From positions 1-38,178 of IMG/VR virus record IMGVR_UViG_3300027759_002554: a stretch of 38,178 nucleotides of DNA; one strand, written 5' to 3'. Shown here piece after piece: positions 5,122-22,051 of the stretch. Source of the DNA: a virus. The notes under the pieces were generated by a model. The model saw nothing but the letters and a program-made list of their open reading frames with translations, was not told where the DNA came from and searched no databases. Position 1 is the first letter of the stretch. Every line of letters starts with the position of its first letter. Made by a program: the position numbers and the translations under genes.

Positions 5122-5303
5122 TAGATACCCTTGAGTTGTTCCCACTCGGTGCTGTCATTGATTACATCACGGCGCCACAATGTACCATCGTTGCATAATG
5201 CAGTCACAATAATTCTACCAGAATTTGTTGTTGCGGTTGTGATTTGTGTAATCTTGCGCTTTGGTCCAGATTCTTGTTTCAATTCAGTTTTTTCGTCAGC
5301 CAT
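5121..5303 (-). CDS. Hypothetical protein, 60 aa
   Basis: A charged N-terminus (ADEKTELKQESGPKRK) is followed by a compact beta pattern (ITTATTNSGRIIVTALCNDG, then TLWRRDV). The 'VTALCNDGTLWR' stretch looks like one blade of a repeat fold such as a propeller or RCC1-type repeat, but only one unit is present. AAGGA lies in a good position before the ATG. It overlaps its neighbours by eight bases on one side and one base on the other. Function unknown. Confidence 0.6.
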   Translation of the reverse strand: MADEKTELKQESGPKRKITQITTATTNSGRIIVTALCNDGTLWRRDVINDSTEWEQLKGI

Positions 5304-5529
5304 TATTTTCTTCCTTTATGTCAAATGCTCTAATAATATCATACACACCATCTGCACTTTTGTCTATGCAAATATCTTTTGAGAAACCTCTATATTCAAA
5401 CATATGTGGCTTATCGGTATCACCAAACACATCAATCATAATCTCAGGCTCACCCATGTGATGTTTGTATTCATCATCATAGGTGCAATAGAGGTCCTCA
5501 AGTTTTTTAATCAAGTCAATTATACGCAT
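5296..5529 (-). CDS. Hypothetical protein, 77 aa, predicted leaderless mRNA
   Basis: This is an acidic small protein: an N-terminal helix (MRIIDLIKKLEDLY) then a region with EPEIMIDVFGD and a C-terminal IRAFDIKEENNG. The helix-then-strand start is common in small early phage genes that I know only as hypothetical. The key point is the start. A consensus sigma-70 promoter ends six bases before the ATG, so the transcript would begin at or next to the AUG. There is no ribosome-binding site between them. Confidence 0.65.
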   Translation of the reverse strand: MRIIDLIKKLEDLYCTYDDEYKHHMGEPEIMIDVFGDTDKPHMFEYRGFSKDICIDKSADGVYDIIRAFDIKEENNG

Positions 5530-5534
5530 AATAC

Positions 5535-5563
5535 ATTATATAACAATACAATCATTCTGTCAA
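5535..5563 (-). promoter_or_regulatory. Consensus sigma-70 promoter with predicted leaderless start
   Basis: -35 TTGACA at 5558-5563, -10 TATAAT at 5535-5540, spacer 17, no mismatch. The ATG of the 77-aa gene begins six bases after the -10, so the expected transcription start is at the AUG. It stands in the only intergenic gap of this area (5530-5568). Confidence 0.85.
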
Positions 5564-5568
5564 GGTAA

Positions 5569-6561
5569 TTATGCAGCCTTGCCCCAAACATCATCCCATG
5601 TACCAGATAGTGCGCCCTTTGAGTAATCAGTGGATCTATTCTCAAAGAAATTGGTATGCGTTGGCGCATTAATCATTTCTTCCACCCAAGGCAATGGATT
5701 ACGTTTGACTTTCATTATTCCCTTAAGACCCAAACTAATAAGCCTACGATCAGCAATGTAGCGAATATATTGTTTAACGTCATCAGCAGTAAGGCGATCC
5801 ATAGGACCCATACTGAATGCCAAATCAATAAACTTGTCTTCCAACTGAACCATCTTCTCAGCAATTGAGTAAATTTTTCCTTTAAGTTCATCGTTCCATA
5901 TTTCCTTGTTTTCTTCAATGTATGTGCGGAACAATTTAATCATTGATTCGGCATGCATTGTTTCATCAACGATAGACCAAGTTACAATCTGACCCATGCC
6001 CTTCATTTTGCCGGTTCTAGGGAAGTTAAGTAACATGATAAAGGAACTGAATAATTGCATCCCTTCGGTGAAAGCACTGAATACTGCAATATGAGTAGCA
6101 ACAGAACTACTTGAATTATTTTGTAGAGATATATCCAGAACGTAATCATGTTTGTCCTTCATTTCTTGGTAGTCTAAAAATTGGTTGTATGTTGTCTCTG
6201 GTAGTCCTAGAGTTTCAATCAGGTGACTGTATGCGGCTACGTGCAATGCTTCTCTTGCGGCAAAGCCCATCAACATCATACGCACTTCAGGCTGTGGAAA
6301 ATGTGGTAGATAATTCTTAACATAACCACCAGCTACGTCAATATCACCTTGTGTGAAGAATCGGAAGATGTGTGTGAGAAATTGTTTTTCTTCATTGGTT
6401 AGTTTCTTCTTCCAATCTTTCACATCTTCAAGCATCGGCACCTCGGTGTGCAACCAATGTGATTGTTCATGCTTTAGCCATGATTCATAGGCCCATGGAT
6501 AATTGAACGGTTTGAAATGATTTCGTTCATCCGTTAGTCTTGTTTTACTTTTCTTAATCAT
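5569..6561 (-). CDS. nrdB: Class Ia ribonucleotide reductase, small (radical) subunit
   Basis: NrdB holds the di-iron/tyrosyl radical that NrdA needs to reduce ribonucleotides. With the start used here (330 aa) the iron ligands and radical Tyr are visible: E104-x-x-H107-x3-Y111 in REALHVAAYSHL, a Glu in FTEGMQLFSSF, and E-x-x-H in DETMHAE. Spacing E-x2-H-x3-Y matches E. coli E115/H118/Y122, so this is a Tyr-radical enzyme. The C-terminal tail (SGTWDDVWGKAA) is the usual flexible NrdA-docking peptide. I chose the ATG that overlaps the TGA of the thioredoxin gene; an ATG four codons earlier is possible. nrdA lies 2 kb upstream in the same direction. Confidence 0.96.
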   Translation of the reverse strand: MIKKSKTRLTDERNHFKPFNYPWAYESWLKHEQSHWLHTEVPMLEDVKDWKKKLTNEEKQFLTHIFRFFTQGDIDVAGGYVKNYLPHFPQPEVRMMLMGFAAREALHVAAYSHLIETLGLPETTYNQFLDYQEMKDKHDYVLDISLQNNSSSSVATHIAVFSAFTEGMQLFSSFIMLLNFPRTGKMKGMGQIVTWSIVDETMHAESMIKLFRTYIEENKEIWNDELKGKIYSIAEKMVQLEDKFIDLAFSMGPMDRLTADDVKQYIRYIADRRLISLGLKGIMKVKRNPLPWVEEMINAPTHTNFFENRSTDYSKGALSGTWDDVWGKAA

Positions 6562-6803
6562 GCTGTGGCCCATTCTCTAATTTCATGCGGTGCTTTTAGT
6601 CCAACAATTTTGCTTAGTACTTGATTGTCTTCCATAAGCACAAGTGTTGGCACCGAGCGAATGCCATATTCTATCGCAATCTCAGGGTCTTTGTCAATAT
6701 CAATTACATCAATAGGCATATTTAAATCCATTGTTTCCAATTGTTTTGATAGTGTCTTGCATGGCTGGCACCATTCAGCGGTGAATCTAATAATCTTTTT
6801 CAT
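6558..6803 (-). CDS. Thioredoxin-like protein
   Basis: This 81-aa protein has the redox motif WCQPC at about residues 11-15, the cis-Pro segment RSVPTLVLM, and the usual beta-alpha-beta order, though it is shorter than the 105 aa of bacterial thioredoxin. Given its place directly before nrdB, it most likely re-reduces the CxxC tail of the phage NrdA (inference). The chosen ATG (MKKIIRFTAEWC) follows two bases after the end of the nuclease gene; upstream in-frame codons have no thioredoxin character. Its stop overlaps the nrdB start. Confidence 0.92.
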   Translation of the reverse strand: MKKIIRFTAEWCQPCKTLSKQLETMDLNMPIDVIDIDKDPEIAIEYGIRSVPTLVLMEDNQVLSKIVGLKAPHEIREWATA

Positions 6804-8531: not shown

Positions 8532-10337
8532 TCAACCCTCACATGCTAAACATTCATTACCTTGTGCAATTTGCGTCATGTCAAGTTCTTTGATTACATC
8601 ACGTTCAATTCGTTTTGATACCTTATCAGCCTTAGCCAATTTCTCACTACGGCAATAGTACAATGTCTTGAGACCTTTTTTCCATGCTAGAAAGTGGCAA
8701 GCATGAAGATACTTAACATTCACATCTGGTCTAAAGAATAGATTCAATGATTGTGCTTGGTCAATGTAACGCTGTCTATCCGCGGCATGTTCAATGACCC
8801 AACGCTGGTCAATCTCCATTGAAGTCTTGAACACCTCTTTTGTATTTTCATCCATCCATGTTAGATGTTGAACGGAGCCATCGTTTGCAATAATTGATGA
8901 CCAAATGTCATTATAATCATTTGTTGATATTGTTTCACCATCACCTGCCAGGTGTTTTTGAATAACTTCATCCAACCACTTATTCTTTGTCAATGATGAA
9001 CCACTCAAGGTGTCTTGTCTATAAGCATTAGCACGATACGGCTCAATAGAAGGGCTGGTATTACCCATAATAATAGAAGAAGAAGCATTGGGAGCAATAG
9101 CCATAACGTGAGCAAACCTACGACCAGTGCCATCGCAATCAGGAGGACTGCCTCGTTCACTACCCAATTGAATGTTCGCTTCATCAAGTTTCTCCTTAAT
9201 ATGTTTGAACATTTGATTGTTCATAACTTTAGCCATGACACCTTCAAACGCAATACCACTTTTCTGTAGGAATGCATGAAAGCCTAAGGCACCAATGCCA
9301 ATAGAACGCTCACGCCTAGCAGAATACTTAGCCCTGGAAATGGTATCAGGCGCATTAGCAATAAAATACTCCAAAACATTATCAAGCATTTCAGCAATGT
9401 CCTTAAGGAATAAGGTATCATTTTTCCATTCATCATAGTACTCCAAATTAACCGATGATAAGCAACATACAGCGGTGCGGTCTTTATCTGTCGGTAGAAT
9501 AATCTCACTACACAAATTACTTTGTCTAATTGTTAATCCTAAATCTTTCTGAAATTGTGGCATAGCACGATTGCTTGTATCAATGAAATGTAGGTATGGC
9601 TCACCAGTTAGCATTCGTGCTTCAAGAATTCTTTGCCACAATTCTCTTGCTGGTATTGTATCACGCACAACACCACTGTGTGGATCTTTTAGTTCCCATG
9701 TATCATCAGCATGTGGATCAAGCATAGACTGTTCAATCAATCGCATGAAGTCATCGGTGATGTTGATGCCTTGATGCAGATTTAAGCAACGCATATTCTG
9801 GTCACCTGTTGGCTTTCTCATTTCAAGAAATATAAGAATATCGGGATGAGAGATATCCAAGTAAGTAGCATAACTGCCGCGCCGAGTCCGCCCTTGGCGG
9901 TAGGCGAGCGATGATGCGTCATAAGTGCGTAGATGAGGCATAATGCCAGTAGATTTATCATCAGCAGAACGAATACCAAGACCAATTCCAATACCTCCAC
10001 CTAACATTGACAACCAATTTACTTCCGAGAGACAATCAACCAAACCTTCTGCGCTATCATGGAGATAGGGGAGAAAACATGATATAGGAAGGCCACGCTT
10101 AGAACGCCCAAAGCTGAGAATAGGAGTAGAATAAGACAACCAATGTCTAGAAGAATAGTCATAAAGTCTTTGGGCGTGTTCGTTGTCTGATCCAAAAGCC
10201 CTAGAAACAAAAGCAAATCTTTCTTGTGGTGAGACTTCTTCATCTTTCATGTAACTTTCTTTTAATCGTTTTATGCCAAGTTCATCAAACAATTTATCCC
10301 GAGAATAGTCTACTTCAATACCGTGAACGATATCCAT
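8532..10337 (-). CDS. nrdA: Class Ia ribonucleotide reductase, large (catalytic) subunit
   Basis: NrdA reduces ribonucleoside diphosphates with NrdB. Catalytic features are visible: C87 in GLPISCFLP, the N274-x-C276-x-E278 triad in SNLCSEIILP, a Cys pair C291/C292 for the partner thiol, the radical-transfer tyrosines Y560-Y561 in LYYCRSEK, and a C-terminal ECLACEG with the CxxC that exchanges with thioredoxin. At 601 aa it is much shorter than E. coli NrdA (761 aa). The catalytic core starts near residue 35, so the N-terminal ATP-cone regulatory domain is absent. It should therefore lack dATP feedback inhibition at that site (inference). GGAG precedes the ATG. Confidence 0.96.
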   Translation of the reverse strand: MDIVHGIEVDYSRDKLFDELGIKRLKESYMKDEEVSPQERFAFVSRAFGSDNEHAQRLYDYSSRHWLSYSTPILSFGRSKRGLPISCFLPYLHDSAEGLVDCLSEVNWLSMLGGGIGIGLGIRSADDKSTGIMPHLRTYDASSLAYRQGRTRRGSYATYLDISHPDILIFLEMRKPTGDQNMRCLNLHQGINITDDFMRLIEQSMLDPHADDTWELKDPHSGVVRDTIPARELWQRILEARMLTGEPYLHFIDTSNRAMPQFQKDLGLTIRQSNLCSEIILPTDKDRTAVCCLSSVNLEYYDEWKNDTLFLKDIAEMLDNVLEYFIANAPDTISRAKYSARRERSIGIGALGFHAFLQKSGIAFEGVMAKVMNNQMFKHIKEKLDEANIQLGSERGSPPDCDGTGRRFAHVMAIAPNASSSIIMGNTSPSIEPYRANAYRQDTLSGSSLTKNKWLDEVIQKHLAGDGETISTNDYNDIWSSIIANDGSVQHLTWMDENTKEVFKTSMEIDQRWVIEHAADRQRYIDQAQSLNLFFRPDVNVKYLHACHFLAWKKGLKTLYYCRSEKLAKADKVSKRIERDVIKELDMTQIAQGNECLACEG

Positions 10338-10354: not shown

Positions 10355-11023
10355 TTATTTTGTTATTAACTGATTCGCCAGAGGAAATACTTCGGCGATT
10401 ACTATTCCGCATTGCACGGCAATGTCTCTATGTTCTTTCTGTGTGCCATTTTCAGCCCTGAGTTCTATATAGTGAATCCAAGAACGCAGGGTACCATTCA
10501 TATAAAGCCTCGAAACAGTATTGCCTTCTGGCAGTACCGCTCTTGCTTGTTCTTTTGCTATACCATTATCAATAGCCCATGTGTATGCTTCTTTAGCCGC
10601 ATTGATAACTCTAAGTTGTTGCTGTTGCCAAAATGCTTGTAACTGCAAATCGTCTGTTGTTATACTATTCTGGCGATTCTTTGTATCTTGCAATCTAGCC
10701 TCACGCAACACAAAATCTAAATCTTTTGTTGGGTCTGCATATCTCTGACTAAACTCTTGGAATGAGAATGACCGATGCCGTAACATCTGTCTTGCGATAT
10801 CCCTAGTCGTTTCAATCTCTAAACAAACAGAGACCATCTCTAGTGGGCTCCAATGTTTGTTGTTGATTAGATATTTAATTAACTTATCTGACGTACCAGT
10901 ATTGAATTGATTTGCAGGATTGGATACACGGGCACAAAATGCAATTAACTCTTGCATATCATAAAGGCCTTCGCTTGCAATCTCACGGGATGGTTTGCTA
11001 TGACTTACTAACTTAACTTTCAT
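10355..11023 (-). CDS. thyX: Flavin-dependent thymidylate synthase
   Basis: ThyX makes dTMP from dUMP using FAD, NADPH and methylene-tetrahydrofolate. The diagnostic RHRxxSxxxxSxR motif is intact as RHRSFSFQEFSQR (R82-R94), and the C-terminal half has LPEGNTVSRLYMNGTLRSW with the usual substrate-binding Arg and Asn residues. I start at MKVKLVSHSK, whose ATG lies one base past the primase TAA and behind GGAAGAAAG; a longer in-frame start would run into the primase gene. The length of 222 aa is normal. With NrdA/B and thioredoxin it forms a phage dNTP-supply unit. Confidence 0.96.
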   Translation of the reverse strand: MKVKLVSHSKPSREIASEGLYDMQELIAFCARVSNPANQFNTGTSDKLIKYLINNKHWSPLEMVSVCLEIETTRDIARQMLRHRSFSFQEFSQRYADPTKDLDFVLREARLQDTKNRQNSITTDDLQLQAFWQQQQLRVINAAKEAYTWAIDNGIAKEQARAVLPEGNTVSRLYMNGTLRSWIHYIELRAENGTQKEHRDIAVQCGIVIAEVFPLANQLITK

Positions 11024-11024
11024 C

Positions 11025-12050
11025 TTATACTTTCTTCCAAAAAACAAATCTTGCTTGTGCTTCTATATTCTTAAATGTGTTATTACTTATAATCGCCTCA
11101 ATTTCATCAAGTGATATGCCATTCATCACCATCTCATTGATATCTTTGCCTACGATGTTATCGGGCCAAATTACGACATTGTGACCTAAGTTGATAGCAT
11201 CTTTCATTAACTTCACAATTTCTTTATTGCGTGGTTCATTATCAAAAATTAATATTTTTTCTTCTGCTGAAATATTTTTTGCTGTTACTGATAAACTAGA
11301 ATCACCAGATGCAAGGCAGTTGCTCAAAAACAACGAATCAATCGGACCCTCAACAATCTTAACTGGCTTAGTAAAGTCTACTCTATCTAGTCCATAGATT
11401 AGTTTGTTTGGGCTGTCGTTTGTCTTGATGGTGACATACCGCAATTTGTATTCTGCATTAGCCAATGCACGACCAGATACACCACTCATAGAATTCCATT
11501 CATCGTAGAATGGTATCACAAGTCTTGCATCTGATACGATATCTTTGCCATGCTTGGGATATACTTCATCACAAAACTTTTTGTAGTTTGCTGTGAAATA
11601 TAACTTCTCAAACATTGCTGTTGGTATCTTGCGGCGTGTCAGATAAATTTTACAAAAATGCGTATCGGGTAGTTTATCACATCTTTCTGCATTTTCATAG
11701 ACGGCACTATCTAATACACCAAAGCGCGGAGCTGGTATATCAAATAGCTTTGCTCTGTTATTGTTCATGCCAATCTCACCAGATTTATATCGCTCAAGGA
11801 CATATTCCTTGTATAAATTGGAGTCTACTTGTTTGATAAGATTGCCGATTGTTGTTCCAGTACCACAGTTGTGGCATTTATAGAACAACTCATTACCTTT
11901 GCGGTAAATGTACCCTCGCATTCTTGCTTTGTGTTTTTGTGAATCGCCACACAAAGGGCACCGACAGTTGAAAAGATAATCAGATTTGCGCTGAAACTTT
12001 TCAAACCGCGGTAAGATTAATAATGTAAATTTTAAGTCTGTAGAAAGCAT
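11025..12050 (-). CDS. 61: DNA primase, T4 gp61 type
   Basis: It makes RNA primers for lagging-strand synthesis with the gp41 helicase. The zinc-binding region reads RCPLCGDSQ (C31, C34) and YKCHNCG (C59, C62), the CHC2-type layout of gp61. A TOPRIM-type segment follows at about 233-248 (VKIVEGPIDSLFLSN) and LIFDNEPRN near 268 may supply the metal aspartate. The length of 341 aa matches T4 gp61 (342 aa). The ATG stands only five bases after the -10 box of a consensus promoter and lacks a ribosome site, so a leaderless message is predicted from that promoter. A second promoter inside the preceding gene would give a leadered one. Confidence 0.93.
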   Translation of the reverse strand: MLSTDLKFTLLILPRFEKFQRKSDYLFNCRCPLCGDSQKHKARMRGYIYRKGNELFYKCHNCGTGTTIGNLIKQVDSNLYKEYVLERYKSGEIGMNNNRAKLFDIPAPRFGVLDSAVYENAERCDKLPDTHFCKIYLTRRKIPTAMFEKLYFTANYKKFCDEVYPKHGKDIVSDARLVIPFYDEWNSMSGVSGRALANAEYKLRYVTIKTNDSPNKLIYGLDRVDFTKPVKIVEGPIDSLFLSNCLASGDSSLSVTAKNISAEEKILIFDNEPRNKEIVKLMKDAINLGHNVVIWPDNIVGKDINEMVMNGISLDEIEAIISNNTFKNIEAQARFVFWKKV

Positions 12051-12055
12051 GGTTC

Positions 12056-12084
12056 ATTATATAACAACTCCGCACAAATGTCAA
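12056..12084 (-). promoter_or_regulatory. Consensus sigma-70 promoter of the primase gene, predicted leaderless
   Basis: -35 TTGACA at 12079-12084, -10 TATAAT at 12056-12061, spacer 17, no mismatch. Five bases separate the -10 from the primase ATG, the same geometry as at 5535. The two promoters also share the sequence GTTATATAATG around the -10. Confidence 0.85.
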
Positions 12085-12386
12085 GTAATAAACGCAATAA
12101 TTTTCTCAAAATGCCCGGAAAGAATGCCAGCAAATGCAACACCACCAGCTACCATCCAAATCATTTTTTGACGGATTTGTTCCAAGTTACCAATTTTCTT
12201 GGCTAACTCAGCATGTTGTTCGCATGATGCATTATACATCTCATTTAGCTTATCTGTCAAGCTATCTCTGGTCTTATCAAGGCAATCATGCATATCCCTA
12301 ACATCAACTTTCAAGTCATCCAGTTTCTCACTAAGGTTTTCTACCTTAGTTTCAACTATGCCAATTCTTTCTACAGTGGTTGCCAT
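12081..12386 (-). CDS. Coiled-coil protein with a C-terminal membrane anchor, 101 aa
   Basis: Residues 5-70 form a long coiled coil (VERIGIVETKVENLSEKLDD and on), and residues 73-92 (KMIWMVAGGVAFAGILSG) form one membrane segment, giving a C-tail-anchored layout. This matches the haemolysin XhlA-type accessory proteins of lysis regions in general design, though I cannot show homology. It is the last gene of the lysis region. It contains a perfect TTGACA-18-TATAAT promoter-like element for the primase gene downstream. The ATG directly follows the TAA of the gene upstream. Confidence 0.68.
   Translation of the reverse strand: MATTVERIGIVETKVENLSEKLDDLKVDVRDMHDCLDKTRDSLTDKLNEMYNASCEQHAELAKKIGNLEQIRQKMIWMVAGGVAFAGILSGHFEKIIAFIT
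12231..12260 (-). promoter_or_regulatory. Second promoter upstream of the primase gene, inside the coiled-coil gene
   Basis: -35 TTGACA at 12255-12260 and -10 TATAAT at 12231-12236, spacer 18. It would give a transcript with a leader of about 170 bases for the primase. Exact hexamers make it credible, although it is within coding sequence. Confidence 0.6.
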
Positions 12387-19891: not shown

Positions 19892-22051
19892 TTATACTTT
19901 CCTCTTCAATGGAGTTGCTTTGCCATTCTTACCAATGACTTCACCCATGTCACGGCCGATAGATTCACCTCCAGCGGCCATTGACATTCCGGATTCTATA
20001 CCTTGGTCTATTTCGTTGATTTTTTTCTTCCACTGCTCTTTGATTTTGGAGTAGTAGATTTTACCGGTAATACGACTTTCTCTTCCGGTTGGATCGTAGG
20101 CGCTTCCGTCACCAATGTGGGCGCTGGAGTCTCCACAATGCTCGGTAATGGTAACGGTTCCACTGCCTGGGGCGCAGGTGATGGTGCCTGATATTTCTGA
20201 ATGTCCAATGGATGTTTCTCTTCCACTGGTGGTGTTTGTTTCTTGAAGAAACTCTTGATTAGTTTTAACATCTGTACTCTCCTTTAATTTAACCATGTAA
20301 CCTTTTTCAACTCTCACAACTTCACCGTTTTGGCGATGTGCTTCTTTAGCCGCGTTGTTTCTTATAGCAAACAATCTTGGTCTACTGTCTTTACCAACAT
20401 ATGTATGACCGTCAGAATGCTTAACTTTTTGTTTGAATGGGCTGATTTCTTCCAACAATTCAAATTCATCGTCTATAGATTCATTAACTTTTTTCTTTGG
20501 AACACTTCCGCTGGCTCCACTGGCTGTAACCTTATTTGCCATCTTAGCCATTCTTTCTTGATCCGCATGAGTAGGATCTTGTACAAGTTTATCATGCACA
20601 GAATGATGTGTCACCTTACCATTCTTACCATACCGTCCAAAGCCAAAATATTGCAAACCTAATTTATGTGCTTGTTCAGCGGCATTAGATTCTGCTGGGC
20701 CCATTTGTTCAGCACCTTTCTTAGGCACAGGCAAGGTATCTTTCTTAGATAATTCACCTGCAATCCATGTAGATGCTTGTTTATTTTTAGGAGGTCTTTT
20801 AACAAAGTCTTGTATGCCTTTATATAATTGTAGCAACTCATCTTTCTTTGCTTTCACCACATCTGGAGAGGCACTACGCAAATCTTCGGAGTTATCAAAC
20901 TCCATATAATTTTTACCAAACAACTTAGCCATTTCTGGTCTTGCATTGTTTACTGCATCCCATTTTTCTTTACGAATGTTTTCTGGCACAGTACGACCAC
21001 CACGCTGACCACGTTCAATGTTACGCTTTGATGAAATTTCATCTTTGGTGTTAACTGCAATCATTGAAGTTTCGTAACCAAGTTCTTCTAATTCTTTTTT
21101 GATTTTAGCATACTTCTTTGGATCATCGCCAGTGCCATTGATGATTAGTCCATTACGACCAAGCAATGCTAAACGTTGGCGCAATTCGGTCAAATCTTTT
21201 GCTTTACCGCGAATAATATCCCGAGCCTCTTTTTCAGATGCTGGCATTGTCTTGTCTAGATTTCTTTTATCCATCAAGAATTCTAGTGCCTTATCTGAAT
21301 TGATTTCTGTTAGTCCATGACCAGCAAGTGTGTTATCCAACACATAGTCTTTACCTGAACCTGGTCCGCCAGATAAAAATACTGCTTTGAAGATTGCTTT
21401 GTCGTGGACGCCTTCGGTCAATAACTGCTCAAAGAAATAGTTTATATCTTCCTTGAGATTCATACCTTTACGCACATCATGGTACAATTCTTTTGCATGT
21501 TCTGGTGCTACATGCTTAGGAATACCTTTTTTGAATTCTTTGAAATTACCTGTTTCAGCGTGACCACGCATCTTGGATGCAGACATACCAGAAACACCTT
21601 CAGCATCAGGATCACGTTCACCTGCTGAATGGACAGTTATGTGTTTGAAGTTATATAATGCGCCTTTATGTTTACCATTATACTGCGCTAATTTAGTTTT
21701 ATATTCATCAACGCGGTCAGAACCTGCAATCATATGCAAGTGTGTAGCCCCGGCTTTATGTAACTTAGCCGCGTGTTGTAGAAATGTTGGATGTTCTTTG
21801 TCTGAGGTGCTCAGATTTGTATCTGGAAAGAATCTTTTTGCGTGTTTGAGTTTATCTTGTGCAGATAAAGGATTCTTCTTGGCATCTTGTGAGTGAGAGA
21901 TTACAACATGGTGTGTTCCACCAACTTCTTTTGCAACCTCTTTTACTTTGTCAACAAGTTTGGCGTGGCCAACTGTTGGTGGATTCATACGTCCAAAGGC
22001 TAGAACGGCATGCTTTTCTTTTTGTTCTTCTAGGAACCGCTTAAAATCCAT
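19892..22051 (-). CDS. Polyprotein: HxGH-type nucleotidyltransferase + P-loop kinase (zeta-like) + small modules, 719 aa, with capsid-targeting-like N-terminus
   Basis: Domains in order: MDFKRFLEEQ (targeting-like, LEE9|Q); nucleotidyltransferase at about 14-195 with GRMNPPTVGH (T26-x-G28-H29) and a GMSASKMR motif near 155-162, as in NMN/cytidylyltransferases; then LTE213|G; a P-loop kinase at about 220-400 with LSGGPGSGKD (G228-K234) and a later RNIERGQRGGRTVPE stretch resembling zeta-toxin-type kinases; a module with LQYFGFGRYGKNGKVTHHS (465-483); VNE524|S, LEE535|I; a small beta unit (HTYVGKDSRPRLFAIRNNAA); LKE591, LQE604 and a C-terminal Gly/Thr-rich stretch. The order nucleotidyltransferase then kinase recalls NadR. 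It heads a late transcript (CATAAATA 39 bases upstream). Substrates are not known. Confidence 0.8.
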   Translation of the reverse strand: MDFKRFLEEQKEKHAVLAFGRMNPPTVGHAKLVDKVKEVAKEVGGTHHVVISHSQDAKKNPLSAQDKLKHAKRFFPDTNLSTSDKEHPTFLQHAAKLHKAGATHLHMIAGSDRVDEYKTKLAQYNGKHKGALYNFKHITVHSAGERDPDAEGVSGMSASKMRGHAETGNFKEFKKGIPKHVAPEHAKELYHDVRKGMNLKEDINYFFEQLLTEGVHDKAIFKAVFLSGGPGSGKDYVLDNTLAGHGLTEINSDKALEFLMDKRNLDKTMPASEKEARDIIRGKAKDLTELRQRLALLGRNGLIINGTGDDPKKYAKIKKELEELGYETSMIAVNTKDEISSKRNIERGQRGGRTVPENIRKEKWDAVNNARPEMAKLFGKNYMEFDNSEDLRSASPDVVKAKKDELLQLYKGIQDFVKRPPKNKQASTWIAGELSKKDTLPVPKKGAEQMGPAESNAAEQAHKLGLQYFGFGRYGKNGKVTHHSVHDKLVQDPTHADQERMAKMANKVTASGASGSVPKKKVNESIDDEFELLEEISPFKQKVKHSDGHTYVGKDSRPRLFAIRNNAAKEAHRQNGEVVRVEKGYMVKLKESTDVKTNQEFLQETNTTSGRETSIGHSEISGTITCAPGSGTVTITEHCGDSSAHIGDGSAYDPTGRESRITGKIYYSKIKEQWKKKINEIDQGIESGMSMAAGGESIGRDMGEVIGKNGKATPLKRKV
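20008..20271 (-). CDS. Overprinted small protein, 87 aa, nested in another frame of the 719-aa gene
   Basis: AAGGAG lies seven bases before the ATG, one of the best ribosome sites in the window, although the site is inside another gene. The protein has a basic amphipathic start (MLKLIKSFFKKQ), a Pro/Glu/Val-rich middle (PSPAPQAVEPLPLPS, IQPEEKVVLPV) and a Lys/Ser-rich end (KSKSSGRKKSTK), a make-up common in real small phage proteins. The host frame over the same bases (residues 594-680) is a low-complexity Gly/Ser/Thr stretch, which suggests that one of the two frames arose later. Function unknown. Confidence 0.6.
   Translation of the reverse strand: MLKLIKSFFKKQTPPVEEKHPLDIQKYQAPSPAPQAVEPLPLPSIVETPAPTLVTEAPTIQPEEKVVLPVKSTTPKSKSSGRKKSTK

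Follow-up and report, generated by a model that had tools for sequence, protein, structure and literature searches.

Host-type promoters set close to start codons suggest leaderless expression of a primase gene in T4-type phages

Leaderless messages, such as that of lambda cI, are usually regarded as rare in enterobacteria and their phages. The DNA analysed here, a 38,178-base IMG/VR virus record (the window), carries two perfect sigma-70-type promoters that each end five bases before an ATG, which raises the question of whether host-type promoters in a T4-type phage direct messages that begin at, or almost at, the start codon itself.

Two perfect promoters and their surroundings

The window encodes a T4-type replication set (a gp43-like DNA polymerase, UvsX, a DnaB-like replicative helicase and a gp61-like primase) and belongs to the T4-type phages by its polymerase, helicase, primase and UvsX. 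The nearest relatives of its primase among named phages are those of Pelagibacter phage Mosig and Methylophilales phage Melnitz (~41%). The T4 gp61-like DNA primase (341 aa; 11025..12050, minus strand) stands first in a cluster with thyX, nrdA and nrdB. Directly downstream lies the gene for the thymidylate synthase ThyX (10355..11047, minus strand), and further down that for NrdA, the large chain of ribonucleotide reductase (RNR; 8532..10337, minus strand), which has a GGAG Shine–Dalgarno (SD) sequence. The gene for the RNR small chain, NrdB (5569..6573, minus strand), is directly upstream of the second promoter, which precedes the gene for a 77-aa protein (5296..5529, minus strand) that returned no match in Pfam and PHROG searches. 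No tRNA or Rfam elements were found within the window.

Both promoters reported by the initial annotation proved to be exact and to be followed by an ATG, on the minus strand. At the primase (12056..12084), the −35 box TTGACA (12084–12079) is separated by the 17-nt spacer TTTGTGCGGAGTTGTTA from the −10 box TATAAT (12061–12056), which is followed by the 5-nt discriminator GAACC (12051..12055) and then by the ATG (predicted leaderless start at 12050). The promoter of the 77-aa gene (5535..5563) consists of TTGACA (5563–5558), the 17-nt spacer GAATGATTGTATTGTTA and TATAAT (5540–5535), with the 5-nt discriminator GTATT (5530..5534) leading to the ATG (predicted leaderless start at 5529). The two promoters nearly fill the intergenic gaps of 30 and 39 bp between co-directional genes, and a 101-aa ORF upstream (12081..12386, minus strand) terminates at the TGA within the −35 box of the primase promoter. 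An SD-like tetramer, present for 27 of the 56 listed ORFs of the window, is absent before both ATGs. Given a 5-nt discriminator, the usual +1 (the seventh base) would fall on the T of the AUG, and a start at the G (the eighth base after the −10 box) would yield a message without the AUG. At the primase, the ATG is preceded by C, and its A is the first purine at a usual start position.

Perfect TTGACA-N15..19-TATAAT sites occur four times in the window, compared with a mean of 0.08 after shuffling, which bears out the earlier statement that exact hexamers are improbable by chance; hexamers at the 16–18-nt spacing of the sigma-70 consensus are thus commoner than chance. Across 21 phages, promoters with ≤1 mismatch numbered 345, compared with 107 reversed-motif controls. 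The two other perfect sites of the window (12260–12231, N18; 28745–28717, N17; both minus strand) are intragenic, and within 80 nt of them no ATG begins an ORF of at least 50 codons. The site at 12231–12260 falls within a Leu-Thr-Asp coding stretch and may be coding-driven; comparable promoter-like sites are seen in G001, G002 and G004.

The sequence TTGTTATATAATG is common to both window promoters, and in one relative (L129) the promoter of the 77-aa gene reads TTGACATT...TTGTTATATAATGAAC, resembling the primase promoter; these likenesses hint at promoter copying or recombination. The shared GTTATATAATG, which had been counted as a further likeness, is weak when taken alone and was rejected as a special element, given that one of its three exact copies in the window is an unrelated plus-strand site at 21650.

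Two spacing classes in related phages

We measured the distance from the −10 box to the first ATG that opens an ORF of at least 50 codons for promoters with ≤1 mismatch in 21 related phages, the window included and T4 and Syn9 left out. The distances formed two classes, with 39 promoters at 5–9 nt and 59 at 25–34 nt, compared with 23 at 10–19 nt; the reversed-motif control gave 2 at 5–9 nt in the same 21 phages. T4 had no promoter at 5–9 nt from an ATG, and Syn9 had one. SD-like tetramers were largely lost from the close class, being found at 4 of its 39 starts compared with 53 of 82 in the 20–39-nt class (p = 7e-9). A −10 box at 5–9 nt above the start codon, as at both window sites, corresponds to a predicted 5′ UTR of ~0–3 nt.

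The bases next to the start codon are also biased. A pyrimidine precedes the AUG at 34 of 39 primase starts, compared with 47% of SD-led starts (p = 5e-7), and in primase promoters with the 8-nt distance the ATG is invariably preceded by CT or TT. Such pyrimidines are what a transcription start at the A of the AUG would predict.

Conservation at the primase

Among 57 primase homologues from IMG/VR (46–76% identical, apart from one near-copy), a promoter with its −10 box ending 5, 6 or 8 nt from the ATG was perfect in 8, had ≤1 mismatch in 24 and ≤2 mismatches in 37. The corresponding values for 11,638 further ATGs in these loci were 0.03%, 0.08% and 0.2%. Because the sequences in the conservation tests are related rather than independent events, the p-values are nominal. 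The five-base gap therefore holds at both window sites but is not general, and the identical geometry of the two sites, presented in the initial annotation as special, loses that standing beside relatives that use 5, 6 or 8 nt. Alignment of the promoters of 39 phages showed conservation of the hexamers and of a TG lying one base upstream of the −10 box, with the rest of the spacer near random; this extended −10 TG, kept in relatives, is out of register in the window.

A quick maximum-likelihood tree showed that the arrangement marks a 50-row primase clade (support, 99), with several losses inside. Outside the clade, the −10 box lies 10 nt from the primase ATG in Mosig and 11 nt in HTVC008M, and the cultured Melnitz has the arrangement at 7 nt. 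Cyanophages also fall outside the clade and have leadered primase promoters. Homologues begin at the same ATG as the window primase, in agreement with its annotated start; a later start codon was rejected, as conservation runs from this ATG and a protein begun at the next in-frame ATG would lack the first zinc-binding cysteines.

Neither promoter nor SD was found upstream of the primase in a set of homologues (L006, L025, L027, L045, L073 and L075–L084), and the primase start is therefore apparently usable without an SD in a longer message. Judged from these upstream regions, SD-less initiation at the primase may predate the close promoter or have no connection with it. In L006, L025, L027, L045, L073, L075, L078 and L084, mostly TATATTATG or a similar sequence stands right at the primase start codon.

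Other genes with close promoters

Twelve near-identical relatives (95–100%) retain the promoter of the 77-aa gene; it is absent from homologues at 65–82%, which lie in other gene neighbourhoods. Distant homologues (44–51%; L155–L176) mostly carry TGnTATAAT or a close variant 5–6 nt above the ATG, with TTGGCC a further 17 nt upstream, overlapping the end of the upstream gene. As far as these comparisons go, the promoter itself is kept only in the 95–100% relatives, and the geometry recurs in distant homologues in a different, extended −10 version, with continuous descent no more than a possibility. Family comparison also supports the annotated start of the gene.

A second family encodes a GIY-YIG-like protein of ~100 aa (L261–L340; query, L101:8284-8598; Pfam E = 3e-4, just under the cut-off). 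Of its 54 distinct upstream regions, 36 contain a close promoter (≤3 mismatches), which in nearly every case lies 6 nt from the first ATG. In L272, L273, L282, L289 and L291, the promoter is ~27 nt away and is accompanied by AAGGA, which suggests that this gene exists in both leaderless and SD-led forms; a third set of homologues lacks the promoter. Elsewhere, nine similar TTGACAATTACC...CCTGGTATAAT promoters stand in a row before small ORFs (G004:C1:17000-24100; L094), forming a repeated cassette of leadered early promoters.

Comparison with known systems

Transcription of lambda cI from PRM starts at the AUG and gives a classical leaderless mRNA. Our lambda cI control (TAGATT-TAACGT-ATG) places the −10 box 6 nt above the ATG and, like the window sites, combines a close −10 box with the absence of an SD; PRM, however, is an activated repressor promoter of a temperate phage, whereas the window has near-perfect promoters on a T4-type replication gene. 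cI is also named as leaderless in the literature (PMC9031893). Bacterial leaderless genes, as surveyed by Zheng et al. 2011, are marked by TANNNT ~12 bp above the start codon and, like the window sites, have no SD (PMC3160421); the first T of the −10 box is at −11 in the window sites. That survey covered bacterial and archaeal genomes, to which the window case adds a full −35 box, phages and a conserved orthologue.

Early promoters of Melnitz (PMC9004378) and of cyanophages resemble those of the window in their host-type −35 and −10 boxes and the lack of a MotA middle system, and have a primase–RNR promoter in common with it. The Melnitz paper counts early promoters and does not describe leaderless ones, the word appearing in it only within the title of a reference (PMC9004378). 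Unlike the window, Syn9, P-TIM68, S-CREM1 and AG-345-P14 have primase promoters ~18–30 nt from the start, and T4 gene 61, the orthologous primase, has no such promoter within 45 nt upstream.

T4 has MotA and RegB, whereas neither was found in the relatives searched, which included long contigs, Mosig, Melnitz and HTVC008M, with T4 as positive control; the MotA domain PF09114 occurred in T4 only, among 12 records of which some, including the window, are fragments. Explanations through a MotA middle promoter or through escape from RegB cleavage at GGAG are thus not favoured. A T4-type late promoter was also rejected, given that each site pairs TATAAT with TTGACA across 17 nt instead of having TATAAATA without a −35 box; TATAAATA is no commoner than chance in the window and does not occur at the two promoter sites.

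Proposed mechanism and alternatives

Conservation at the primase, the bimodal distances, SD loss in the close class and the initiator-like base strongly support the proposal, already made in the initial annotation, of host-type promoters with predicted leaderless (~0–2 nt) transcripts. In the model that we propose, the host sigma-70 housekeeping holoenzyme would use promoters packed into 30–39-bp gaps between co-directional genes, and RNA polymerase would begin the message with the A of the AUG, after a discriminator of 5 nt in the window and of 6 or 8 nt in relatives. The first gene of the resulting leaderless message (primase or 77-aa protein) would be translated through recognition of the 5′-terminal AUG, probably by 70S ribosomes, and genes further down, such as nrdA, from ordinary SD starts. 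We assign this model as a whole (sigma-70 start at the AUG, leaderless first gene and SD-led downstream genes) a probability of roughly 0.8, in which the exact start nucleotide and leaderless translation in the cell are predictions from sequence. The 5-nt discriminator, which would place the usual +1 at the T of the AUG, and the homologues with neither promoter nor SD weigh against it. Expression would probably be early, considering the promoter type and the custom of calling sigma-70 promoters in such phages early (PMC9004378). Candidate reasons for leaderlessness include compaction of the gaps, a low dose of primase beneath a strong promoter of nucleotide genes, and 70S initiation during infection.

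The alternative that survives best is that the promoters chiefly serve downstream genes (thyX, nrdA and others), with the first gene poorly translated on purpose or translated mainly through SD-less read-through, and with leaderlessness as a side effect of packing. Gaps almost filled by promoter are consistent with this, as are the thyX and nrdA genes that follow the primase here, the RNR genes that also follow it in Mosig, Melnitz, HTVC008M and cyanophages, and the promoterless homologues that likewise have no SD before the primase. However, the distance is fixed at 5, 6 or 8 nt with pyrimidines before the AUG, as if the start were chosen to keep the AUG, and the same pattern recurs in the unrelated GIY-YIG-like family; we consider this reading unlikely, although still a serious competitor. 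Less probable again is that RNA starts at neighbouring purines and that leaders of a few nucleotides dominate, in which case translation would be SD-less but not strictly leaderless. Distances of 8–11 nt in some homologues, including Mosig and HTVC008M, would fit such leaders, but the invariable CT or TT of the 8-nt class leaves the A of the AUG as the first purine close to +1. Random matches to the consensus in A+T-rich DNA with no promoter function, to which the two perfect sites inside genes and with no obvious target might point, are very improbable given the fourfold occurrence against 0.08 expected, a level of conservation at the primase well in excess of the null and hexamers kept against a near-random spacer.

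Implications

Leaderless expression as such is already known, and a limited search of the open-access literature returned nothing relevant on its occurrence in T4-type phages or cyanophages; relative to that literature, the new element is its putative conservation at a replication gene of T4-type phages. We suggest, with considerable doubt, that in T4-type phages infecting freshwater and marine heterotrophs the primase-led gene set could form a leaderless expression class, distinct from the SD-led class and serving 70S/5′-AUG translation at times when infection saturates or alters SD-led initiation. Start calling based on SD sequences can misplace such leaderless genes. The GIY-YIG-like family, with its leaderless and SD-led forms, would provide a natural test bed for the benefit of leaderless initiation, and the cultured phages Melnitz and Mosig make direct testing possible. 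On comparative grounds, a gene at the core of replication thus appears to have been leaderless over a large span of divergence within a group of T4-type phages.
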